Below the pieces are notes generated by a model. The model did no database searches. It was not told where the DNA came from and worked only from the letters and a program-made list of their open reading frames with translations. A DNA stretch of 64,000 nucleotides, taken from positions 2,858,585 through 2,922,584 of the forward strand of contig NZ_CP055156.1 in assembly GCF_014217805.1 (NCBI RefSeq), given 5' to 3'. Shown here in pieces: positions 46,151 to 64,000 of the stretch (the first letter of the stretch is position 1; the number at the start of each line of letters is the position of its first letter). The translations under genes were made by a program, and so were the position numbers. Source of the stretch: Adhaeribacter swui. Its GTDB lineage: Bacteria; Bacteroidota; Bacteroidia; Cytophagales; Hymenobacteraceae.

Positions 46151-49100
46151 ATGGGAAAACTAAGTTTTAATGAAGGTTGCTATTGTTCCCGTAATGAGCG
46201 CGGAGTGTCTCTGGGAATACTCTTTAAAGTATTATTCCTTTTATTGTTATGTGCTACCACTCAGGCTCAGACGCCAAACCGGGCGAATCTGATTACGGTG
46301 AATGGTAAGGTTACAGAAAAAGGAACCGGTGAACCGCTGATTGGTGTATCCATACGGGTTAAAGGCAGCAACGATGGTGTTGTTTCGGATGCAAATGGAA
46401 ATTACAAGATTCAGGTACCTGTAAATAGCACCTTGCTGTTTACTTATATAGGCTACAGTGATTTAGAGGAGCCTGTCGGAAACCGGATAACTATTTCGCC
46501 GCAACTTGCAACTGGTGGCAGAGCATTAAATGAAGTTGTTGTGGTTGGGTATGGAAGCCAGTCGAAGCGTGAACTGACTGGGTCGGTAGCCTCGGTCAAT
46601 GCGCGACAATTGCAGGATCGAGCGGTGGTTTCGTTCGGAGAAGCGCTGGCTGGGCAGATGGCGGGTGTACAGGTACAACAGACCTCAACTGCGCCAGGCG
46701 GTGGTATTTCCCTGAAAATCAGGGGTACGGGATCCATTACAGCGGGCAACCAGCCTTTGTATGTGGTCGATGGGGTGCCACTCGATAATTCAGTTAGTAA
46801 TGCGTCAGCCCAGGGTGGAGATATTGGGGATCAATCTCCGGTTAATCCGCTGGCAGCTATTAATCCAGATGATATTCAGTCCATTGATGTATTAAAAGAC
46901 GCTGCTGCTACCTCCATTTATGGATCGCGTGGATCTAATGGCGTGGTTCTGATTACCACCAAGCAAGGCGTGGCCGGTAGGTCGCAGTACAGCCTGAATG
47001 TAAGTTACGGTTTTCAGGAAATCGCGAAAAAGGTTGGAATCATGAGCAACCAGGAATACGCGCAACGCCAGATTGATATGAGAAACACGGATTGGGTGCG
47101 TGCCGGCGGGAAAGCCACTGATCCTAATTCGGCCAGAAGCGGACCACAATACAAGATCGCGGATGAATTTAAGAATGCCGCGTCACTGCCTTTCACCGAT
47201 TGGCAAGACCTGCTTTATCGCCGGGCACCCATGCAAAACTACCAGCTTTCAGCTTCCGGCGGCACGGACAATGCCCGCTATTACTTGTCTGGTAACTATC
47301 AGAATCAGGAAGGCATTGTCATTAATTCCGGTTTTAAAAAATATGCGTTTCGTCTGAATGTGGATGCGAAAGCGTCGGAAAAGATTAGAGTCGGCTTCCG
47401 TATTGCTCCATCCTACACGAATAACCGCATCGCCACAACAGGCGGGATTTCTGATTACGGCGCAGTAGCTACCACTGTGATGTCGACTCCGGGATTATAC
47501 CCCGCGCGGAATCCAGATGGTACGTACGCAACCACTTACACGCTGCATTATGACGATGGCACCACGCAGAATATCAACTACAATAATGCGCTGGCTTTTG
47601 GTGAAGGTATTCAGAACACAATGAACCAGTTCAGCACGGTTGGTAGCTTGTTTACAACCATTGATATCCTGAAAAACCTTCAATTCAAAACAAGTATCAA
47701 TGCGGATGTGAATACATTCAATAACAACAAATTTTCACCTTCTTTTATCAGTGTAAATCCTTCGTACGGTCGTTCTTACGCGGCTACAAATATTAGTTGG
47801 ATTAATGAAAACACATTGACCTACGACAATTCGTTTGCCGATCGGCATAATGTAAATGTGCTGGTGGGGTTAACAGAGCAGAAATCGACTTTCAACTCTA
47901 CGGCAGTCAATGCAAATTCATTCCCGAATGACCTGGTACCTACGCTAAATGCGGGGATCGTAACAGGTGGAAATTCTTTGCGATCGCAATGGACCCTACT
48001 CTCCTTATTAAGCCGGGCGACTTACAATTTCGACGAGAAGTACTTTTTAACCGCCACTTTCCGTCGCGATGGTTCCTCTCGTTTCGGATCGGAAAACAAA
48101 TGGGGGAATTTTCCTTCCGCTTCGGTCGGGTGGAGAATCAGCCAGGAAGAATTTATGGCGGATGTAACTGCTGTTAGTGAGTTGAAGTTGCGTGCCAGCT
48201 ATGGTTTGATCGGTAATAACCAGATACCCGATTATGCATCCGTCGGCTTAATTTACGGTAGCAACTATATTTTAGGCTCCGGTGACGGTGCAATTGCCAG
48301 TGGATTGGCGCAAGGTTCTCTGGGCAATGTAAACCTTGGATGGGAAAAGGCCAAGGAAATAGACCTGGGGTTAGATCTGGGACTTTTTCAAAACAGGATT
48401 TACCTTTCCGCTGATTATTACAACAAGCTAACCTCTGACCTGCTTCTTAATGTTCCTGTGCCTCTTTCAACTGGTTTTGAAACTGCTCTGCGCAATCTGG
48501 GAAGTCTCCGTAATAAAGGGGTAGAGCTTGCCTTGGAAACCAGAAATTTCAATACAGATAAATTTACCTGGACCACCAACGCCAACATTTCTTTTAACAC
48601 TAATAAGGTAGAATCACTTGGAAATGGCGGCACACCGATTATCGTTGCCAACCGTGCCCAGGAGAACTCTTTGACACACATTACCCAAATCGGCAGCCCG
48701 CTGGGAAGTTACTATGGTTATGTTTTCGATGGAGTTTATAATACCATTGACGAAGTGAATGCTTCTGCTCATTTACCGAACACGAATGCAGGTGATGCCA
48801 AATTCAGGGATCTTAATAATGATGGCGTCATCAATGACTCCGACAAGACCATTATCGGCAATAACCTTCCCAAGTTTACCTATGGCATTACAAACAGCTT
48901 CAACTACGGAAACTTTGACTTTAGCTTTTCGCTGCAAGGCGCTCAGGATGTAGAGGTGATGAACCTTACCAAACGCAGTAATTACCGGAACAATGGGGAA
49001 GCTTTCAAGAACTACTGGCGTTCGCCTGAGGAACCCGGTGATGGCAAGACGTTTGGCCCGGGAAGCTCGGCTAATAACCGGACAATCTCCTCCTGGCTGG

Positions 49101-49366
49101 TAGACGATGCCTCATTCCTGCGCATCAGAAACGTTACCATTGGGTATAAACTTGGCAAAATTCTGACCGGATCCATTTTGCGAAATGCAAGGGCTTACGT
49201 AAACATTCAAAACCTGCACACCTTCACCAAATACACCGGGTACAATCCAGAGGTGAATACGACCGAAGGCGATCCTTGGATTTCTTCTGCGCTCACGCCC
49301 GGCATCGATTATGGCACTTACCCCATGGCAAGAACCATTGTATTTGGTCTTAACCTTGGTTTCTGA
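46151..49366 (+). CDS. SusC-like TonB-dependent receptor
   Basis: The product has 1071 residues. A signal peptide ends near TTQAQ (residue 40). A carboxypeptidase-D-like domain follows (ITVNGKVTEKGTGEPLIGVSIRVKGSNDG to LFTYIGYSD), then the plug (NEVVVVGYGSQSKRELTGSVASV, PLYVVDGVPLDN, IDVLKDAAATSIYGSRGSNGVVLITTK) and the large barrel ending RTIVFGLNLGF. It imports an oligosaccharide or other ligand across the outer membrane, powered by TonB, with the SusD lipoprotein as lid. Ligand not predictable. SusD follows after 39 bases. Confidence 0.96.
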   Translation: MGKLSFNEGCYCSRNERGVSLGILFKVLFLLLLCATTQAQTPNRANLITVNGKVTEKGTGEPLIGVSIRVKGSNDGVVSDANGNYKIQVPVNSTLLFTYIGYSDLEEPVGNRITISPQLATGGRALNEVVVVGYGSQSKRELTGSVASVNARQLQDRAVVSFGEALAGQMAGVQVQQTSTAPGGGISLKIRGTGSITAGNQPLYVVDGVPLDNSVSNASAQGGDIGDQSPVNPLAAINPDDIQSIDVLKDAAATSIYGSRGSNGVVLITTKQGVAGRSQYSLNVSYGFQEIAKKVGIMSNQEYAQRQIDMRNTDWVRAGGKATDPNSARSGPQYKIADEFKNAASLPFTDWQDLLYRRAPMQNYQLSASGGTDNARYYLSGNYQNQEGIVINSGFKKYAFRLNVDAKASEKIRVGFRIAPSYTNNRIATTGGISDYGAVATTVMSTPGLYPARNPDGTYATTYTLHYDDGTTQNINYNNALAFGEGIQNTMNQFSTVGSLFTTIDILKNLQFKTSINADVNTFNNNKFSPSFISVNPSYGRSYAATNISWINENTLTYDNSFADRHNVNVLVGLTEQKSTFNSTAVNANSFPNDLVPTLNAGIVTGGNSLRSQWTLLSLLSRATYNFDEKYFLTATFRRDGSSRFGSENKWGNFPSASVGWRISQEEFMADVTAVSELKLRASYGLIGNNQIPDYASVGLIYGSNYILGSGDGAIASGLAQGSLGNVNLGWEKAKEIDLGLDLGLFQNRIYLSADYYNKLTSDLLLNVPVPLSTGFETALRNLGSLRNKGVELALETRNFNTDKFTWTTNANISFNTNKVESLGNGGTPIIVANRAQENSLTHITQIGSPLGSYYGYVFDGVYNTIDEVNASAHLPNTNAGDAKFRDLNNDGVINDSDKTIIGNNLPKFTYGITNSFNYGNFDFSFSLQGAQDVEVMNLTKRSNYRNNGEAFKNYWRSPEEPGDGKTFGPGSSANNRTISSWLVDDASFLRIRNVTIGYKLGKILTGSILRNARAYVNIQNLHTFTKYTGYNPEVNTTEGDPWISSALTPGIDYGTYPMARTIVFGLNLGF

Positions 49367-49405
49367 TCCAACTGATAACAAATCAATTTTTTAACATTGA
49401 TTCAT

Positions 49406-50881
49406 ATGATCTCAAAAAATATAAAAATAGCTGTTGCCCTGGTTATCCTAACATTTTCAGGAACGTCCTGTGAAGATTTCCTGGAATCAGAACCCATTTC
49501 TCAGATCGGCGAAACAAATTTTTTCAAAACCGAATCTGATTTTAAACAGGCGCTGGTGGGTGCCTATTCGGCTTTCGCGCAAGTGTATTCGGGCAATGGA
49601 TACTATTCTCTGCTGGTAGATTTGCGTTCCGATAACACCACTGAGCTCACCGCTGGCGGCGATGGGAATGATGCTAAAAGGAATATCGACGAATTTCGGG
49701 AAACGACTGACAATGAACATTTAACTGCCTTTTGGCAAAGCAGCTACACCTTGATCGCAAGATGCAACAGTATCCTGGCCCGCATTGACGGTGCAAGCTT
49801 TTCGGATGAACTGAAAAAGCAATACACCGGCGAAGCACTTACGCTGAGAGCTTTGGGTTATTTCAACCTCGTTAGGTTATTTGGCGGCGTTCCGCTCGTT
49901 ACCGAACCGGTAATGGATCTCGATGCCAGCTACAAAGTGGGTCGGGCTACCGTGCAGGAAGTGTACGCACAGATCGAAGCGGACTTAATAAAAGCAGAGG
50001 AGTTAGTACCAGTTTCTTATGATGACGCCAATGTAGGCCGGGCGACAAAGGGTGCTGCTCAAAGTCTGCTGGGACAAGTTTACCTTACTCAGAAAAAATA
50101 CGCTGAAGCGGTTGTGGCATTCAAAAAAGTAGTCGATTCGGGCACTTACAGTCTGTTGCCGGTGTATGCCGACCTGTACAAAGCCGGGCAGCAGGGAAAT
50201 TCCGAGGCGATCTGGCAGGCACAATTTAAAGGAGCAGCAAATGGACTCGGTTCAAACTTTCCCAATCACTTTGCACCAACGGGCTCAGAAGGAATTACCA
50301 TTCCATCGGGTGGCGCCTACGGGTTTAACCAGCCAACCGAGGATATTGCCGCCGCTTATTCGGATGGTGATGTACGCCGCAATAATATTGCTGACGGCTA
50401 CATGAATGGGACTACTTTTGTTGCTGCCAAATACATTCGCGGTTATGTAGAGCGCGAAACAGGCGGCGGCTACGCCGATTCTGGCGCCGATTGGTATGTG
50501 ATCCGTTATGCCGATATCTTGTTAATGTATGCAGAAGCACTCAATGAAGTAAATAAAGGCCCGGTTGCCGAAGCTTACGCCATGATCAACCTGGTTCGGA
50601 ACCGCGCTGGCCTCGCTAATCTAAGCAATCTGACTTATGAAACTTTCAAAGAAGCGGTTTATAATGAAGAACGACTGGAGTCGCCTTTCGAAGGTCATCG
50701 CTGGTTTGATCTTCTGCGTACGGATCGGGCACTAACAGTTATGAATGAAAAAGTCTCTGGTCCTGGGAAAATTACTGTTGGAATTTCGACACCCATTAAG
50801 CCTTACCAGCTTTTGTACCCGATTCCCGCTCTGGTAGTTATTACCAGCTCGCCTGCCATTGCGCAGAATGAGGGGTATTGA
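49406..50881 (+). CDS. SusD-like substrate-binding lipoprotein (RagB/SusD family)
   Basis: The product has 491 residues from the ATG at 49406; a TTG nine bases upstream is less likely. The lipoprotein signal ends at Cys22 (GTSC), followed by EDFLESEPISQI, as usual. SusD blocks include TLRALGYFNLVRLFGGVPLVTEP, RATKGAAQSLLGQVYLTQKKYAEA, WYVIRYADILLMYAEALNE, INLVRNRAGL and EERLESPFEGHRWFDLLRTDRA. It forms the lid of the SusC receptor and captures glycans at the cell surface. A terminator follows at 50921. Confidence 0.96.
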   Translation: MISKNIKIAVALVILTFSGTSCEDFLESEPISQIGETNFFKTESDFKQALVGAYSAFAQVYSGNGYYSLLVDLRSDNTTELTAGGDGNDAKRNIDEFRETTDNEHLTAFWQSSYTLIARCNSILARIDGASFSDELKKQYTGEALTLRALGYFNLVRLFGGVPLVTEPVMDLDASYKVGRATVQEVYAQIEADLIKAEELVPVSYDDANVGRATKGAAQSLLGQVYLTQKKYAEAVVAFKKVVDSGTYSLLPVYADLYKAGQQGNSEAIWQAQFKGAANGLGSNFPNHFAPTGSEGITIPSGGAYGFNQPTEDIAAAYSDGDVRRNNIADGYMNGTTFVAAKYIRGYVERETGGGYADSGADWYVIRYADILLMYAEALNEVNKGPVAEAYAMINLVRNRAGLANLSNLTYETFKEAVYNEERLESPFEGHRWFDLLRTDRALTVMNEKVSGPGKITVGISTPIKPYQLLYPIPALVVITSSPAIAQNEGY

Positions 50882-54220: not shown

Positions 54221-56143
54221 ATGGTACGATTTGTAAAAGTACTCTTCTGCTTTTTAGCATTAACTTCATGCAATATAAGAAATAAAGGTAAAGGCGCTGA
54301 CCCGTGGCAACTGCGGGCACTACCTGCTTCGGTCCGGCTGGATCCGGTTACGAATGAAATTATCGAACATCGGTTTAAAGGCGTCCCGGCCAATCAGGCT
54401 GGCAAGGGAAATCTTCTGGATAAAAACTGGATTTATGACGGAAAACAGGTTTCTCTGCACGGGGCGCGAGGAGAATATGTCTCATTTCAATTAGTACTGA
54501 CCAATGAATCAGACGCGGAACTGACCGGCATCCAGCTTGACATGGCACCATTTAAGAATGGCAGTACCGAGTTAGCCGTTAAGCCGGAGCTTTTTCTGGA
54601 ATGGTCTGTAAATGTACAAAGTACCAGTACCGGTTACCCGAAGTCCACCCTTGGCAAAGGCTGGTACCCCGACGCATTGATCCCCTTTAAATACATTCAG
54701 ACCGACTCGGCAAAGGTGCACGGCCGCTGGGTGTACCCGTTTACCTTGCCCGATTTTAATAACCGGATCAGCAACCAACGTTCGCAGATGATTTGGGTGG
54801 ACCAGTTTATTCCACTGGACGCGCAAAGAGCCAAGCCAGGTACTTATCAGAGCACGATTACTGTTACGATTGGTGGACAAGCCAAACAAATGCCGATTAG
54901 CCTGACAATCTGGGATTTCGAACTGCCTAATGAGAACCTCTTCAAAGCCAGCCTGCAACACGAAGGATTTCTGAGTGAAATGGATGAAAAGCAAGAACTG
55001 GCAGTATACCAGCTCTTCAAACGCAACCGCATTTCTTTAATGGATCCAACTTACGATCCTGAAATTGAGGTAAAAGACAACAAGGTTCAAATCCATTGGG
55101 ACAAGTTTGACAAGCGAATAAAAAAATACCTGACTGGCCAGGCCTTCACCAAAGAACATGGCTACGTGGACGGTCCTGGCTACGGCGAGCCACTCGAAAC
55201 CTTTGCGCTGCCATTTGACGTGTACGGCAAGCATGGCACAGCTGGCTGGCCGGATATCGGCAAGCCGGAAGTAGAACGTAATGCGACCAACCAGGCTATA
55301 TACACCAGCAGCATCCAGCAGGTGCGCCAGCATTTGCTCCCAATGGTCGATCCTAAGAAAACACTTCTGACGGTTTACCTGAACGGTTTGGATGAATCGT
55401 ACTTTCCGGAGGCGTGGTCCAGAATGGTGTTTTATGGTAATTTGTTTAAAAAAGAATATCCGGAGGCTAAGTTCCGAGTGGACGGAGCTTACACTAAAGA
55501 AGCAATGGACGTGATCGGGAAATCCATTACTGATTGGGCCTCGCATACGATCAATTACAACATTGATGAGATGCAGCAATACCAGCAAATGGGCATCAAA
55601 GACTGGCTCTACGGCCCAATGTTGTATGAACATAAACTGAACAGCTGGGTAGGAAGCTCGACATTCATCGATTTACCGCTGATTAACGACCGTGCGATCA
55701 GCTGGAGTTGCTGGAAATACAAAACATACTCCTGGATCAGCTGGGGCATTGGTGCCGGCTGGGAAAGGGGCTGGTACGATCCCGAATCCTGGAAAGATTT
55801 TTACAAGGAAGCTTCGGAAGCCGACGCGGAGTTCACTTACCGGCAATTCAATGGGAACGGTTCGGTCATTTACAAACCGGACATGGTGCCTAATGTGCCG
55901 GAACCTTGTCCGTCCATACGTCTGAAAACAATGCGCGACGGCGTGCAGGATTATGAATATTTGCGTTTGCTGACAAAGCTTGATGGTAACTCGAAACGTG
56001 CCGACGCCATTGTTAATAAGCTCATTAAAGAACCATTCGGGAACAAAGCCATCGGTAACCTGGATGTTTGGAGTTACGATCAGGAACAATGGTATAAAGC
56101 CCGCATGGAATTGGCTGCGCTCATTTCGGGGAGGATGAAATAA
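54221..56143 (+). CDS. GH123/DUF4091-like lipoprotein, predicted glycoside hydrolase
   Basis: The product has 640 residues. The lipoprotein signal ends at Cys17 (LALTSC). The N-terminal half is beta-rich (GARGEYVSFQLVLTNESDAEL). The C-terminal half resembles the DUF4091/GH123 catalytic barrel, ending with PCPSIRLKTMRDGVQDYEYLRLLTKLDG, a hallmark of the family. The Asp391-Glu392 pair in YLNGLDESYFPEAW is at the place of the Asp/Glu pair used by GH123 N-acetylhexosaminidases, which act by substrate assistance. The substrate is therefore possibly an N-acetylated amino sugar, but this is inference. It closes the SusCD-type locus. Confidence 0.82.
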   Translation: MVRFVKVLFCFLALTSCNIRNKGKGADPWQLRALPASVRLDPVTNEIIEHRFKGVPANQAGKGNLLDKNWIYDGKQVSLHGARGEYVSFQLVLTNESDAELTGIQLDMAPFKNGSTELAVKPELFLEWSVNVQSTSTGYPKSTLGKGWYPDALIPFKYIQTDSAKVHGRWVYPFTLPDFNNRISNQRSQMIWVDQFIPLDAQRAKPGTYQSTITVTIGGQAKQMPISLTIWDFELPNENLFKASLQHEGFLSEMDEKQELAVYQLFKRNRISLMDPTYDPEIEVKDNKVQIHWDKFDKRIKKYLTGQAFTKEHGYVDGPGYGEPLETFALPFDVYGKHGTAGWPDIGKPEVERNATNQAIYTSSIQQVRQHLLPMVDPKKTLLTVYLNGLDESYFPEAWSRMVFYGNLFKKEYPEAKFRVDGAYTKEAMDVIGKSITDWASHTINYNIDEMQQYQQMGIKDWLYGPMLYEHKLNSWVGSSTFIDLPLINDRAISWSCWKYKTYSWISWGIGAGWERGWYDPESWKDFYKEASEADAEFTYRQFNGNGSVIYKPDMVPNVPEPCPSIRLKTMRDGVQDYEYLRLLTKLDGNSKRADAIVNKLIKEPFGNKAIGNLDVWSYDQEQWYKARMELAALISGRMK

Positions 56144-56494: not shown

Positions 56495-59400
56495 ATGATT
56501 GAAAAAATAAGGTTTATTCTTTCTTTCGTTTTTCTTTTCATCTTGCTGGATAGTTGCGTTTCGCAGAAAACGAAAGAACCAATAAGTGATGCAACAGCAA
56601 CTGCCCCTACGGTTTTAACTCTGAAACAAGATGAACAGGCTGGCACCATCTCCGTATTCCGGGCCGATGGCAAAGAACCCATTCTCACCCAAAATGCGAA
56701 GCCCGATTTCCGGCCGTACATGCACCCCATTGTGGCCCCGGATGGTAAAGGTGTTTTAACGGAATATAGTCCTGGCCACCACAAACACCAAACTGGTTTA
56801 TACTGGGGTTTTACCCGGGTTAATGGCCGCGATTATTTCCATCATCCGGAAGGTACGTATTGGCGTAAAGTTTCGGCGAAGGTGGTGGAAGCCAACGGGC
56901 CGGAAGTAAAGTGGCAAACCGTTTACGATTTAGTAGATGAGCAAGGCAGCCCGGTACTAACGGAAACCCAAAACTGGGCCATGCGGGAGCAGCAGGGTAA
57001 ATATTATCTTACGTTGGAGTGGAACGGCGAAGCCAAGCAGGATGTAACCATTGGTAAATATGATTATGGTGGGTTATTCTTGCGTATGCCCTGGAAAGAA
57101 GGCATAAAAGGAGAAGTAATAAATGCCTCCCGGCAACGAAACGAAAAAGCTGAAGGACAAAAAGCCATTTGGACTGATGTGGGTATGCAAGTGGAAGGTC
57201 GCTCTGATTTGGCGCACATTGCGATTTTTGACCATGCAGATAACAAAGGTTTTCCTACCCCCTGGCGTGTTGACCCACAATTGGGTATTGGTCCGGCCCG
57301 TGCCCGCCACGGCGACTGGAAAATTGCCAAGGGCGAAACCGAAACCATCCGGCACCAGGTGGTGGTGTACACCGGGGCGCTAAACGACACGGAAATGAAC
57401 ACTACCTGGGCCCAATTCAGCGGCAAAAATTCATCTTCTGACTTGTGGAAGTTGGCCCAGCAAGAAGGCAAAGAAGCAAAGTTTTTAACCTCCGAAGAAG
57501 CCGTAAAAAATATGACTCTGATGAAGGGTTATAAAGTAAATGCCTGGGCTTCCGAACCCCTCATGACCCAGCCCATGGCTTTTTGCTGGGACGACCGTGG
57601 CCGGATGTGGATTGCCGAAAACCGGGATTACGAAAACCGAGGCAAAGGTTTCTCTGCCAAAGGTAACAGCCGCATTCTAATTCTGGAAGATACAGATAAA
57701 GATGGGGTAGCAGATAGCAAGAAGGTATTTCTGGAAGGTATTGCGTTTCCTTCGGCGATTGCGGTGGGTTTCGATGGATTATTTATGGGGGCACCGCCCA
57801 ACCTGCTTTTTGTGCCCGATAAAGACCAGGACGACAAAGCCGATATGGACGATATTGAAGTCCGGCTGACCGGCTGGGGCATCCGCGACCGCCACGAAAC
57901 CCTGAACAGTTTACACTGGGGGCCCGATGGTTGGTTATATGGCTTGCAAGGTTTTGCCACTCCTTCTAAAGTTAGTAAACCTAACGGAAAAGGTAAAATA
58001 TACCGGCACAACGATCCTTTTCCGGATGTGATGAAAGGCGAAGGCGTGGATATAAATGGCGGAGTTTGGCGGTATCATCCCACTAAGGATAAGTTTGAAG
58101 TAGTAGCCCACGGTTTCAGTAATCCTTGGGGCATCGATCATGATCCCAAAGGGCAATTATTAATCAGCGCCTGCGTAATTCCCCATTTGTGGCACGTCAT
58201 TCCGGGTGGTATTTATCACCGGCAGGGTGGTCAGCATTTTAATCCGTATGTGTACGACGATATCAAAACCATCGCCGACCACCGCCACCGATCGGCGCAC
58301 GGGGGAGCCCGGATTTACCAGTCAGATGCCTTTCCGCCTGACCAGTGGGGGCGTATTTTTATGGCTAATATCCACGACCACGGTGTATTATCCGATGTAT
58401 TGGTACCGAAAGGCTCTGGATTTACGTCGCATCACGGTGATGATTTTATGATGGCCAACAATGCGCAATGGGTTGGTTTTAGCATGGAAATCGGACCGGA
58501 AGGGGGTATGTACGTGTTGGACTGGCACGATGGTGATATTTGCGGCAACGATGTGCTGAACAGTGAAACCGGTCGCATCTTCCGGATAATGCCTGAGAAC
58601 TCTTTGGCCGAGAATTGGGAAGGCCGGTATGCTGATTTATCCAAGATGACCGATGAACAACTGGTAAATCTGCAGACAAGCAAAAGCGATTGGCATGCCC
58701 GGCGGGCCCGCGTTATTTTACAAAATCGGGCCGCTAAAGGTAGATTAGCCGCCACTACACACAATCAACTACGGCAATTATTCGAAAAAAACAACAATCC
58801 GGATTATCGCCTTCGGGCTATGTGGGGCTTACATGTAACGGGTGGTTTATCAACTAAAAATCTAATTAAATCCTTATCGGATAAAGACCAATACGTACGT
58901 GCCTGGGCAATTCAATTATTAAACGAGGATAAAAATTCGGGTTCAGAAGCCATGGCCAAGTTTACCAAAATGGCCAAATCTGATAAATCGGCAGTGGTGC
59001 GCTTGTACCTGGCCTCGGCGTTGCAACGGATGGAGCCCGGTGACCGCTGGAAGATTGCCGGCGAATTGATGAAGCATGGAGAAGATGCGGAAGACCATAA
59101 TTTACCCAAAATGATTTGGTTTGCCGTGGAGCCTTTGGTAAAAGAAAATCCAAATCGGGCATTGGAATTGGCCGGCCAAAGTAAAATACCCATGGTAGCC
59201 CAGTATATTTCGCGGCGTACCGTAGATGCTAATGCCGTAGAAACGTTAATTACGGCCTTAGGTAAAATGCCTGAGCCTCCGGTAAGTATGCTTCAGGGTA
59301 TGCGCGAAGGGTTGGAAGGCCGTTATGATCTAGCCGCACCCGCTAACTGGGCGGCTGTTTATGCCAAATTGCAAAAATCTCCGGATGAGAATATCGTGCG

Positions 59401-60325
59401 ATTGGCGCAGGACCTGTCCCAGCAGTTCGGCGATACCGAATCGGTGAAAAAAGCTTTGGCAACTCTGAAGAATAAAAATGCACCCTTAGACCAGCGCCGC
59501 CAGGCGCTGCAAGCTATTACCAGCCGCAAACAACCAGAACTTTTAGCAGAACTGCCGGTATTATTAGATGATGCGGGTTTACGCGGCGATGCCATCCGGG
59601 CCATTGCTGATTTTGATGACGAACCACTTGGCAAAATGCTGCTCTCGCGTTACAATTCGTTTAACACCGCCGAAAAATTGCAAGTAGTGCAAACTATGGC
59701 CGCTCGACCCAGATACGGTTGGTTGCTGGCGCAAGGCATTAAAGATACTAGCATCCCCAAACGAGATGTGCCGCCTTACGTAGCCCGGCAACTATTACGG
59801 GTAGTAGGTAGTGGTTTCGTAGAAATATGGGGGCCAATTGAGCAGAGCAGCACCGACGAAAAAGCCTTTGCCAAGTATCAGAAATTATTAACTCCGCAGG
59901 CAGTAAGCAAAGCCGACATAGTAAAAGGTAACGCTGTTTTTCAGCGTACCTGCGGCAGCTGCCACAAGATGTACGGCAAAGGCGGCAACATCGGCCCAGA
60001 CCTTACTGGCTCGAACCGCGCTAATCTAGATTACTTGCTGTTTAATGTGCTTAACCCCAGCGGTGATATTCAGGACGACTACAAACTGGTGGTGGTAACT
60101 ACCCGCGATGGGCGTACTTATTCCGGGAATGTAATTGCCGAAAATGAGCGGCAGGTAACGCTGCGGGTAGTAGGGCAGGAGGCCGTTGTGTTGAATAAAT
60201 CGGCTATACAATCGCGGGAAGTTACTGCCGTATCTATGATGCCCCCTGGGTTATTAGATAATTTAACGGATTCAGAAGTGTTGAATTTAGTGGCCTATTT
60301 ACGAACTCAGGAGGAGCCAAAATAA
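56495..60325 (+). CDS. Multi-domain heme lipoprotein: DUF6807 (PmoA-like), dehydrogenase-type propeller, HEAT-like repeats and cytochrome c domain
   Basis: The product has 1276 residues. The lipoprotein signal ends at Cys21 (LLDSC). Residues about 45-310 form a DUF6807/PmoA-like domain (FRPYMHPIVAPDGKGVLTEYSPGHHKHQTGLYWGF). About 340-720 is a propeller of the membrane-bound dehydrogenase type (MAFCWDDRGRMWIAENRDYE, LHWGPDGWLYGLQGF, SNPWGIDHDPKGQLL). About 740-1100 has HEAT-like helical repeats. The C-terminus is a PVC-type cytochrome c domain with heme motif CGSCH from Cys1153 and a likely distal Met in SMMPPGLLDNL. It may oxidise a sugar or related compound outside the cytoplasm and pass electrons to the respiratory chain; this is inference. 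Confidence 0.88.
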   Translation: MIEKIRFILSFVFLFILLDSCVSQKTKEPISDATATAPTVLTLKQDEQAGTISVFRADGKEPILTQNAKPDFRPYMHPIVAPDGKGVLTEYSPGHHKHQTGLYWGFTRVNGRDYFHHPEGTYWRKVSAKVVEANGPEVKWQTVYDLVDEQGSPVLTETQNWAMREQQGKYYLTLEWNGEAKQDVTIGKYDYGGLFLRMPWKEGIKGEVINASRQRNEKAEGQKAIWTDVGMQVEGRSDLAHIAIFDHADNKGFPTPWRVDPQLGIGPARARHGDWKIAKGETETIRHQVVVYTGALNDTEMNTTWAQFSGKNSSSDLWKLAQQEGKEAKFLTSEEAVKNMTLMKGYKVNAWASEPLMTQPMAFCWDDRGRMWIAENRDYENRGKGFSAKGNSRILILEDTDKDGVADSKKVFLEGIAFPSAIAVGFDGLFMGAPPNLLFVPDKDQDDKADMDDIEVRLTGWGIRDRHETLNSLHWGPDGWLYGLQGFATPSKVSKPNGKGKIYRHNDPFPDVMKGEGVDINGGVWRYHPTKDKFEVVAHGFSNPWGIDHDPKGQLLISACVIPHLWHVIPGGIYHRQGGQHFNPYVYDDIKTIADHRHRSAHGGARIYQSDAFPPDQWGRIFMANIHDHGVLSDVLVPKGSGFTSHHGDDFMMANNAQWVGFSMEIGPEGGMYVLDWHDGDICGNDVLNSETGRIFRIMPENSLAENWEGRYADLSKMTDEQLVNLQTSKSDWHARRARVILQNRAAKGRLAATTHNQLRQLFEKNNNPDYRLRAMWGLHVTGGLSTKNLIKSLSDKDQYVRAWAIQLLNEDKNSGSEAMAKFTKMAKSDKSAVVRLYLASALQRMEPGDRWKIAGELMKHGEDAEDHNLPKMIWFAVEPLVKENPNRALELAGQSKIPMVAQYISRRTVDANAVETLITALGKMPEPPVSMLQGMREGLEGRYDLAAPANWAAVYAKLQKSPDENIVRLAQDLSQQFGDTESVKKALATLKNKNAPLDQRRQALQAITSRKQPELLAELPVLLDDAGLRGDAIRAIADFDDEPLGKMLLSRYNSFNTAEKLQVVQTMAARPRYGWLLAQGIKDTSIPKRDVPPYVARQLLRVVGSGFVEIWGPIEQSSTDEKAFAKYQKLLTPQAVSKADIVKGNAVFQRTCGSCHKMYGKGGNIGPDLTGSNRANLDYLLFNVLNPSGDIQDDYKLVVVTTRDGRTYSGNVIAENERQVTLRVVGQEAVVLNKSAIQSREVTAVSMMPPGLLDNLTDSEVLNLVAYLRTQEEPK

Positions 60326-60428: not shown

Positions 60429-61442
60429 ATGCATCAAAACTTTAACAGAAGAGAATTCATCAAAACGGCAGCAGTGGCAAGTGTAGGTATAGGATTAAAT
60501 TTAAATTCAGGACTTGTTTTGGGTAAAGAAAAAGGGAAACGAGTAGGTATTATTGGCCTGGATACGTCGCATAGTGTAGCCTTTACCAAAGAACTTAATA
60601 ACCCCAATGCTCAGGATAAATACGGTGGCTACAAAATAGTAGCGGCTTATCCGAAGGGCAGTGAAAAAATAGAATCCAGTACGAAGCGGATACCCGGATA
60701 TATTGAAGAAGTCAAAAAGCACGGAGTTAAAATTTCCGGTTCTATTAAAGATTTATTGAAAGAAGTAGATGTGGTATTGCTCGAGACCAACGATGGTCAC
60801 CCGCGTCTGGAACAAGCCATGGAAGTTTTAAAAGCCGGTAAACCCATGTTTATTGATAAGCCGGTTGCTGCATCTTTACGCGATGTAATGACTATCTACG
60901 AGGAAGCAAAGAAAAGAAAAGTACCCCTATTCTCCAGTTCCTCGCTCCGTTATATGCCCAGTGCCCAAGAGGCGGCGCAAGGCAAGGAAGGAAAAATTTT
61001 AGGCGCCGATACCTACGGACCGGCTTCCCTGGAGCCATCTCACCCGGATTTATTCTGGTATGGTATTCATGGGGTTGAAACGCTGTTTACCATTATGGGC
61101 AAAGGATGCCAAAGTGTAACCCGCACGCAAACCGAAAATACGGAACTGGTCGTGGGGGTATGGGAAGATGGCCGCATAGGTACCTTTCGGGGAACCCGCA
61201 ATGGCAAGGCGGACTATGGCGGAACTGCTTATGCGGAAAAAGGAAATATTACTTTAGGCCAATTTGGCGGCTATAATCCTTTGTTAGAGCAAATAATTAA
61301 ATTTTTTGAAACAGGTCAAACCCCAGTTGATCCGGAGGATACCCTGGAAATATACGCTTTTATGGAGGCTTCTGATGAAAGTAAACGCCAGGGCGGCAAA
61401 TCTATTACTCTGGCAAGTGTGATGGAGAAGGCAAAAGTTTAA
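60429..61442 (+). CDS. Gfo/Idh/MocA family oxidoreductase with Tat signal, first copy
   Basis: The product has 337 residues. It opens with a twin-arginine signal (NRREFIKTAAVASVGIGL), so the folded enzyme with its nucleotide cofactor is exported. The Rossmann part starts KRVGIIGLDTSHSVAFTKEL, and the second signature is KAGKPMFIDKPVAASLRD with the conserved Lys of the EKP-like motif (here DKP). The C-terminal alpha/beta domain follows. Such secreted Gfo/Idh enzymes oxidise or epimerise sugars, often as 3-keto glycosides. It follows the heme lipoprotein gene after about 100 bases. Confidence 0.88.
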   Translation: MHQNFNRREFIKTAAVASVGIGLNLNSGLVLGKEKGKRVGIIGLDTSHSVAFTKELNNPNAQDKYGGYKIVAAYPKGSEKIESSTKRIPGYIEEVKKHGVKISGSIKDLLKEVDVVLLETNDGHPRLEQAMEVLKAGKPMFIDKPVAASLRDVMTIYEEAKKRKVPLFSSSSLRYMPSAQEAAQGKEGKILGADTYGPASLEPSHPDLFWYGIHGVETLFTIMGKGCQSVTRTQTENTELVVGVWEDGRIGTFRGTRNGKADYGGTAYAEKGNITLGQFGGYNPLLEQIIKFFETGQTPVDPEDTLEIYAFMEASDESKRQGGKSITLASVMEKAKV

Positions 61443-61482
61443 ATTTTAAAAAAATTAATTTAGATAAAATCTAGCTCATTAA

Positions 61483-62829
<1,347 letters not shown>

Positions 62830-62997: not shown

Positions 62998-64000
62998 ATG
63001 AACAATACGGTTACAATAAAAGATGAAAGCAGTTCAGTTGGGGTAAGTTCTTTATCAAAGCGCAATACCACTATTTCGATTTTGATTATCGGGTTGCTGT
63101 TCTTTATTTTTGGATTTGTCTCCTGGGTAAATGCCATCCTGATTCCTTACTTTAAGATTGCCTGCGAGCTGACAAACTTCCAGTCTTATTTAGTAACGTT
63201 CGCCTTTTATATTTCCTATTTTGTTATGTCGGTGCCGGCGTCTTTTTTGCTCAAACGATTGGGTTTTAAAAAAGGCATGATGGCCGGCTTCTGGACTATG
63301 GCTACCGGAGCCTTTATTTTTATACCAGCCGCCTCTACCCGAACGTACGAAATATTTTTATTGGGTTTATTTACCTTGGGAGCCGGTTTAGCTATTCTGC
63401 AAACGGCGGCAAACCCGTACATTACCATTCTTGGCCCGAAAGAACGCGCTGCCCAGCGTATCAGTATTATGGGTATTTGTAATAAGGCGGCTGGCATTTT
63501 AGCGCCTATTATTTTTGCTGCTGTTATTTTAAAAGCTACCGATACAGACCTTTTTGCGCAGTTGGGCACCATGAGCGAAAGTCAGAAAGATGCTGCTTTA
63601 GATGAGTTAATTAGCCGGGTAATTCTTCCGTATAGTGTATTAGGCTGTGTGTTACTGGCTCTGGGTTTAATGGTGCGTTTTTCGCCGTTGCCTGAAATTA
63701 ATACCGAAGAAGAAACGGCCGAGGTAGCTACCGCCAACTCCGGAAAGACTAGTATTTTTCAGTTCCCGCACTTAATATTAGGGGCAATCAGTATCTTTTT
63801 GCACGTAGGCACTCAGGTTATCGCCATAGATACCATCATCGGGTATGCTGGCACCATGAACATCCCGTTAATGGAAGCAAAGGTATTTCCGTCTTATACC
63901 TTGTTTGCTACCATTTGCGGGTACATTCTGGGCATTATTTGTATACCGCGGTTTATCAGCCAGGTAAATGCTTTTCGGGTTTGCACCTTGCTGGGTACCA
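62998..64000 (+). CDS. Sugar MFS transporter, FucP/GluP-like (C-terminus beyond window)
   Basis: The frame from the ATG at 62998 runs to the window edge, 334 residues visible of an expected 420-440. Major facilitator helices are clear: SILIIGLLFFIFGFVSWVNAILIPYFKIACELTNFQSYLVTFAFYISYF is the typical FucP/GluP start, followed by RLGFKKGMMAGFWTMATGAFIFIPAA and GAGLAILQTAANPYITILGP. Family members carry fucose, glucose, galactose or N-acetylglucosamine with protons through the inner membrane. It follows the two oxidoreductases, suggesting uptake of their product or substrate. Confidence 0.92.
   Translation, partial: MNNTVTIKDESSSVGVSSLSKRNTTISILIIGLLFFIFGFVSWVNAILIPYFKIACELTNFQSYLVTFAFYISYFVMSVPASFLLKRLGFKKGMMAGFWTMATGAFIFIPAASTRTYEIFLLGLFTLGAGLAILQTAANPYITILGPKERAAQRISIMGICNKAAGILAPIIFAAVILKATDTDLFAQLGTMSESQKDAALDELISRVILPYSVLGCVLLALGLMVRFSPLPEINTEEETAEVATANSGKTSIFQFPHLILGAISIFLHVGTQVIAIDTIIGYAGTMNIPLMEAKVFPSYTLFATICGYILGIICIPRFISQVNAFRVCTLLGT

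Follow-up and report, generated by a model that had tools for sequence, protein, structure and literature searches.

The closest described relatives of the protein reported here are the 'PVC-type heme-binding CxxCH' proteins of the TIGR02604 plus TIGR02603 kind, such as Lac161_ORF7, which, in the available text of PMC5342196, share with it a propeller, HEAT repeats and a C-terminal CxxCH heme domain. PQQ sugar dehydrogenases (sGDH, Asd and the AA12 enzyme CcPDH) have the same propeller fold, and CcPDH also carries heme (it is a quinohemoprotein); its heme domain is an N-terminal cytochrome b domain, whereas the heme of the present protein is c-type and C-terminal. Periplasmic glycoside oxidation coupled to hydrolysis of the 3-keto sugar is described, in the accessible part of PMC9007349, for the lactose 3-dehydrogenase LacABC together with DUF1080; this pathway resembles the logic proposed below, although its proteins are unrelated to ours and the likeness lies in partner genes and fusions. 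The available text of a paper on a B. theta GalNAc locus (PMC11992087) contained none of the words looked for. An earlier note on this DNA had stated that no activity is assigned, which according to the literature search stands for DUF6807; for the other three parts it needs qualifying, as a relative possessing them carries a doubtful beta-galactosidase claim in the text available of PMC5342196.

The window analysed is a stretch of 64,000 nucleotides of Adhaeribacter swui, to which all positions refer. An open reading frame at 56495..60325 on the forward strand, starting with ATG, encodes a single chain of 1276 residues which, compared with the Lac161_ORF7-type proteins, has an extra DUF6807 at the N-terminus. 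Residues 69-305 (56699..57409, +) match DUF6807 (PF14100) of Pfam with an E-value of 6e-51 and 174 bits against a cut-off of 27, covering profile positions 23-269 of 270. The propeller at residues 345-701 (57527..58597, +) is recognised as TIGR02604 by NCBIfam (E 1e-91, 307.7 bits against a curated cut-off of 122.2), as DUF7133 by Pfam (residues 333-692, E 3e-62, over cut-off) and as six-bladed by fold comparison. Helical HEAT-type repeats follow at approximately residues 720-1130 (58652..59884, +), where Pfam places HEAT_2 at 759-843 (E 6e-9, over cut-off) and the structure model has helices. The chain ends in a c-type heme domain, TIGR02603, at residues 1140-1271 (59912..60307, +; E 7e-36, 123.2 bits against a curated NCBIfam cut-off of 68.15), with Cytochrom_C of Pfam from residue 1143 (E 8e-8, over cut-off), the motif C1153-x-x-C1156-H1157 and a conserved M1249. 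The domain make-up proposed in the earlier note is borne out by these matches. Its description of the protein as a lipoprotein agrees with the window copy, where the N-terminus MIEKIRFILSFVFLFILLDSC, judged by eye, is compatible with a lipoprotein signal (residues 1-21, 56495..56557, +; lipobox LDSC, Cys21), but as a loose lipobox pattern was found in just 17 of the 95 aligned copies, lipidation is not established as a trait of the fusion family.

These 95 full-length copies (93 distinct) are 54-75% identical to the window protein, and their hosts are Bacteroidota and two Planctomycetota MAGs. Since the full-length arrangement recurs in all of them and the CxxCH heme motif is present in 95/95, the architecture is not a chance one. 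From 364 related stretches, 80 fusion loci were retained, and the carriers are numerous soil and water bacteria. The fusion had been regarded as uncommon; instead it is recurrent in Bacteroidota, being present in 14 of 395 sampled genomes, though rare in the family of the window genome itself (2/150). None of the viral contigs searched matched the fusion, and a plasmid search returned 11 records, each covering less than 80% of the query.

In the window the locus opens with a putative SusC-like and SusD-like pair, named from sequence (46151..50881, +), and continues with a 640-residue protein whose GH123-type Pfam matches fall slightly under cut-off (54221..56143, +). Downstream of the fusion lie two Gfo/Idh/MocA oxidoreductases (60429..62829, +; Pfam, NCBIfam), the second of which resembles the glycoside 3-dehydrogenase family BT_2158_fam (E 8e-43) yet scores far under its cut-off, and a gene, presumably for a sugar-permease-like MFS protein, that is incomplete at the window end (62998..64000, +). 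A conserved operon around the fusion was considered and rejected: genera differ in their neighbours, and in a scan of 107 of the 151 collected neighbour proteins the top Pfam family occurred in at most 4 of the 107, so that the window context does not generalise. The locus is kept only in the sole congener with the fusion (G024, locus L011).

On comparison of 41 diverse DUF6807 sequences, H96, E157, R197, W226, D246 and N250 were found in 40 or 41 of them, and these residues are shared by the fusion and by stand-alone DUF6807 ('PmoA family') proteins. The fusion nevertheless contains a subtype of its own, which is only 19-22% identical to 12 DUF6807 sequences compared from outside it and has its own invariants H77, H95, Q99, H116, H247 and D260. 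A domain of this subtype, 64% identical to that of the window, is encoded separately at locus L013, directly upstream of a gene for a PQQ-dehydrogenase/cytochrome c/3-keto-disaccharide-hydrolase protein and with a second 3-keto-disaccharide hydrolase close by. Similarly, the other DUF6807 of the window genome (L012) lies beside a 3-keto-disaccharide hydrolase, a Gfo/Idh/MocA gene and a TIM-barrel gene, and in L028 DUF6807 is fused to ThuA. DUF6807 is joined to a TIGR02604-type propeller in three different arrangements, namely the window fusion, propeller-HEAT-heme-DUF6807 (L184, 1424 residues) and DUF6807-PA14-hemes-propeller (L185, 1794 residues); counts of the long Planctomycetota fusions are to be read as 'at least'. 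The functional link between DUF6807 and redox proteins suggested in the earlier note gains support from these other orders of fusion and from the neighbours at L013 and L012. A Foldseek search with a multi-domain model, for which the matched part of the model was not given, had among its matches 3dcd (galactose-mutarotase-related), GH36 enzymes, the YidC periplasmic domain and MdoD, all of them beta-supersandwich or sandwich proteins.

In the predicted models the fold of the propeller comes nearest to that of the PQQ sugar dehydrogenases of the six-bladed sGDH class. Structure prediction took 42 of the 95 copies as input, and one two-domain and one three-domain piece were modelled; the fold matches bear on the propeller, the heme and HEAT parts of the second model being hardly covered. 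The best match was 3a9g (Z 29.7, 2.8 A, 297 aligned), followed by the PQQ sugar dehydrogenases 2ism (Z 28.0), AA12 6h7t (27.9), 2g8s (26.8) and CcPDH 6jt5 (26.5). The best DFPase/SMP30-type propellers reached a Z of 24.1, below the PQQ enzymes, which lead in a second fold comparison too. At the level of fold, therefore, the earlier idea of the propeller as a sugar oxidiser is supported. Among PDB sequences the profile of the fusion found 0 matches, and a PDB search with L124 returned designed propellers for the most part.

Of the GSDH loci collected, 12 were aligned. A profile-profile alignment of the fusion propeller with GSDH was blade-shifted (probability 63) and was dropped for motif-anchored alignments. 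These place H467 at the position of the catalytic His144 of sGDH and N543 at that of Asn229 (equivalents of His144/His363 and Asn229/Asn431 in the PQQ sugar dehydrogenases), and D465, H467, E468 and N543 are invariant in 95/95 copies. Unlike those enzymes, the fusion has S542 for Arg228 (Arg228/Arg430), C560 for Gln246 at the calcium-site position, H627 for Lys377, V660 for Arg406 and F662 for Arg408. The PQQ-gripping arginines are absent from 95/95 copies, S542, C560, H627 and F662 are present in 95/95, and position 660 is V in 88 and I in 7. As the Arg228-Gln246 spacing is ungapped, with 18 residues in sGDH and fusion alike, S542 and C560 are the safest of these mappings, those of H602 and H627 coming from alignments that are gapped elsewhere in the region. 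With Arg228, Arg406, Arg408 and Lys377 replaced, the known cofactor may be missing and the propeller is possibly inactive. PqqC was found in 0 of 15 fusion genomes, which is weak evidence since it was found in 0 of 14 control genomes as well; PqqE was detected in 15/15 fusion genomes, below cut-off only. Among 24 other propellers compared (13 from the collected loci and 11 from the window genome), the active-site residue set was common to L115 and L116 only, which puts the fusion propeller together with these two in a distinct branch. L116, a close propeller relative in the window genome, has a plastocyanin-type copper domain and no TIGR02603 match, indicating that the electron carrier is exchangeable.

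On sequence and predicted structure, we tentatively favour, at a little under an even chance, a periplasmic or secreted and probably lipid-anchored carbohydrate oxidoreductase that would pass electrons to its own heme while DUF6807 handles the sugar. The propeller would oxidise a sugar or glycoside hydroxyl with H467 as general base, and electrons would cross the HEAT-repeat spacer to the C-terminal c-heme and leave for the periplasmic cytochrome pool. DUF6807, with its putative sugar-type beta-sandwich fold, would bind or convert the same carbohydrate, possibly acting on a 3-keto-type product by hydrolysis, elimination or isomerisation; such keto-sugar chemistry fits its partners best (ThuA, 3-keto-disaccharide hydrolases). 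The same partners, pointing to C3 chemistry, speak against a dehydrogenase that acts on C1 of aldoses and contains its own mutarotase-like domain, in which DUF6807 would supply the right anomer, the propeller would oxidise C1 as in sGDH and Asd, and the heme would accept the electrons. The Foldseek list is consistent with this arrangement, and sGDH-type propellers are C1 oxidases, but 95/95 copies lack the PQQ residues of such enzymes, and we consider this reading unlikely. That loss of the Arg/Lys set could instead mean a decayed cofactor site in a non-catalytic scaffold that only binds glycans, with the heme serving the electron transfer of another enzyme. Human HHIP, presumably not an enzyme, matches the propeller at Z 25.5 and illustrates the same fold without catalysis; the lost positions, however, show no drift in what replaced them, and His467 and Asn543 are retained, which makes a scaffold rather improbable.

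A bolder version of the oxidoreductase, quite improbable on alignment evidence, is that in the propeller and its cupredoxin-linked sister the PQQ-calcium centre has become a Cys/His site (C560, H564, H602 and H627, with H467 nearby by alignment), giving a sugar oxidoreductase that depends on a metal instead of a quinone and delivers electrons to a heme or blue-copper domain of its own; DUF6807, on the same chain, would then cleave the glycoside once oxidised. Hydrolysis of galactosides or related sugars, as claimed for Lac161_ORF7, appears the most doubtful. E. coli BL21(DE3)pLysS makes LacZ. This was the expression host in the available text of PMC5342196, where the purified protein released glucose from lactose with a Km of 1.8 mM and a kcat of 13.2 per s; the Km given there for LacZ is similar (2.0 mM), and the tabulated kcat/Km of 7.3e4 disagrees with the 7.3e3 that follows from the paper's own kcat and Km. 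As to sequence likeness to GHs, the same text reports only that some homologous proteins carry the annotation of probable GHs, and it describes three domains, DUF6807 not among them. Host LacZ may be behind this claim, the only published activity found for the domain set.

DUF6807 and the propellers of TIGR02604 occur in large numbers and have hardly been studied, DUF6807 receiving passing mention in the literature searched, and the fusion is probably an uncharacterised sugar-oxidising enzyme. The repeated joining of DUF6807 to the propeller in varied orders makes a shared role testable, and the propeller branch devoid of PQQ residues, if active, would represent a new cofactor site or a route of oxidation-dependent sugar breakage.

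The gene at 56495-60325 (+ strand) encodes 1276 residues, and the four domain types that the earlier note had placed in this single chain were all recovered by profile matches, namely DUF6807 (residues 69-305), a DUF7133/TIGR02604 propeller (333-701), HEAT_2 (759-843, inside a long stretch that is helical in the structure model) and a TIGR02603/Cytochrom_C heme domain (1140-1271). The N-terminus resembles a lipoprotein signal; a loose lipobox pattern matches only 17 of the 95 fusion copies. The same note's view that the fusion is uncommon did not hold up. Scanning GTDB contigs turned up 364 related stretches. The 80 best of them were combined with another 14 loci and the window protein into a full-length set of 95 proteins (93 distinct), with 54-75% identity to the window protein. 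The genera include Larkinella, Runella, Dyadobacter, Spirosoma, Algoriphagus and Flavobacterium, while two copies come from Planctomycetota MAGs whose whole assemblies have 7-8 DUF6807 matches each; a copy in a third Planctomycetota genome (L180) is interrupted by the contig end. Any DUF6807 was found in 36 of 150 genomes of the window's own family, and inside an ORF of ~1288 residues in two of them, window genome included; across the phylum it occurs in 54 of 395 genomes, and in an ORF of 1274-1364 residues in 14 (rows counted by hand). Given these 14 genomes and the identity amongst 95 full-length copies, the arrangement is therefore recurrent and strongly conserved, and no oddity of the window genome.

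Two AlphaFold2 models cover the propeller (mean pLDDT 81.7 and 83.0). Its best structural matches are PQQ sugar dehydrogenases, 3a9g (Z 29.7), 2ism (28.0) and AA12 6h7t (27.9), followed by the PQQ enzymes 2g8s (26.8), 6jt5 (26.5) and sGDH (24.1); DFPase and SMP30 type propellers score Z 23-24.1 and human HHIP up to 25.5. In a second comparison 3a9g, AA12, 6jt5 and 2ism lead again. The active-site mapping combined sGDH residue numbers with alignments to PDB sequences and residue numbers from PMC6881789. In these alignments the catalytic His144 and also Asn229 are kept, as H467 and N543, and the PQQ-site residues Arg228, Lys377, Arg406 and Arg408 are replaced by S542, H627, V660 and F662; Gln246 and Thr348 are also replaced, by C560 and R599. 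H467, N543, S542, C560, H564, H602, H627, F662 and C683 are invariant in 95/95 copies, position 660 has 88 Val and 7 Ile, and position 599 has 94 Arg and one Ser.

The fusion was set against 24 further propellers of the TIGR02604 type, 13 taken from the loci of a TIGR02604 search and 11 from the window genome. Of these, those of L115 and L116 alone share with it both the Ser-Asn pair and the Cys560/His564/His602/His627/Cys683 set; many others, including L110-L114, L117-L119 and L162, have Arg at the Arg228 position. The L116 protein (L116:439-3312), the nearest propeller relative found in the window genome, joins a plastocyanin-type domain, instead of a matched heme domain, to a DUF7133 propeller and HEAT repeats. 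A PqqC profile matched none of 15 fusion-bearing genomes, control genomes being likewise silent, so that its absence is suggested at most; every PqqE match in fusion-bearing genomes was below cut-off.

Foldseek matches of the first model, for which the matched range is not printed, include GH36 alpha-galactosidases, the galactose-mutarotase-related 3dcd, the YidC periplasmic domain and MdoD. Since these are beta-supersandwich or sandwich proteins, not expected to match a propeller, DUF6807 likely has such a fold. H96, W226 and N250 are kept in 41/41 diverse DUF6807 sequences and E157, R197 and D246 in 40/41, a set that would suit sugar binding or catalysis.

Elsewhere, a 1424-residue protein (L184) runs TIGR02604 propeller, HEAT, TIGR02603 heme and DUF6807, with Arg retained at the Arg228 position, and one of 1794 residues (L185) runs DUF6807, PA14, several c-hemes and a DUF7133 propeller, TIGR02604 there being below cut-off. 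Because DUF6807 is thus joined to heme propellers in three orders, the sequences argue for a working partnership. In the window's family, locus L013 has the fusion-type DUF6807 as a separate gene, 64% identical to the window's (12 others compared are 19-22% identical), which ends immediately upstream of a 949-residue PQQ dehydrogenase-cytochrome c-3-keto-disaccharide hydrolase protein; a second 3-keto-disaccharide hydrolase lies still further upstream. An ORF close by is presumably transposase-like, and hence a rearrangement is possible. DUF6807 is also fused to ThuA within a SusC/SusD-like locus (L028:10283-12289), stands alone in the window genome (L012) among Gfo/Idh/MocA, TIM-barrel, 3-keto-disaccharide hydrolase and putative GH43-like genes, and occurs in a Planctomycetota operon type (L175) with 2-hydroxyacid-dehydrogenase-like and Gfo/Idh/MocA genes. 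These partners argue for a probable part in keto-sugar chemistry.

The genes upstream of the fusion encode a putative SusC/SusD pair, two secreted proteins for which Pfam gave nothing over cut-off, and a protein that is GH123-like. Downstream come a pair of Gfo/Idh/MocA oxidoreductase genes and one for a putative MFS permease. Beyond the window edge (L160) follow a canonical GSDH-cytochrome c protein and a cluster (L160:7915-19127) of GH20, glucosamine-isomerase-like, SIS, heparinase-like, PfkB kinase and class II aldolase genes, because of which the locus would fit an amino-sugar glycan as target, GalNAc perhaps included. The GSDH-cytochrome c protein (L160:2712-4325, about 65627-67240 in window numbering, past the window end) is 5.3 kb downstream of the fusion and, by eye, has kept His, Arg and Lys at the PQQ-enzyme positions, with Val at the N229 position; one locus therefore holds both propeller types. 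Gene order is identical in a congener (G024). Neighbours in other genera are not the same, and in a Pfam scan of 107 neighbour proteins the most frequent families, sulfatases among them, reached at most 4 matches, so the substrate may vary or gene context may be secondary.

In the literature searched, DUF6807 occurs in one paper, by name only, and terms for TIGR02604 turn up in two, PMC5342196 among them. The strain BL21(DE3)pLysS carries LacZ. It was the host for Lac161_ORF7, which has TIGR02604, HEAT_2 and a TIGR02603-type cytochrome in common with the fusion and is reported in PMC5342196 to hydrolyse lactose with a Km similar to that of LacZ, as the paper itself remarks. Table 3 of that paper lists a kcat of 13.2 per s with a Km of 1.8 mM, a ratio that disagrees with the kcat/Km printed there, 7.3e4 per s per M. 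The claimed hydrolysis may reflect host LacZ. The nearest described logic to that proposed for the fusion, in PMC9007349, is a periplasmic lactose 3-dehydrogenase acting with DUF1080 hydrolases.

TIGR02604 gives 40 matching pieces in the window genome and 16-45 in six other congeners searched, which represents a large, unstudied expansion. The fusion itself is a variant on already known kinds of protein, in which a sugar-type domain is joined to a heme propeller that, by its predicted features, resembles carbohydrate oxidoreductases. The branch to which this propeller belongs has lost the PQQ grip.
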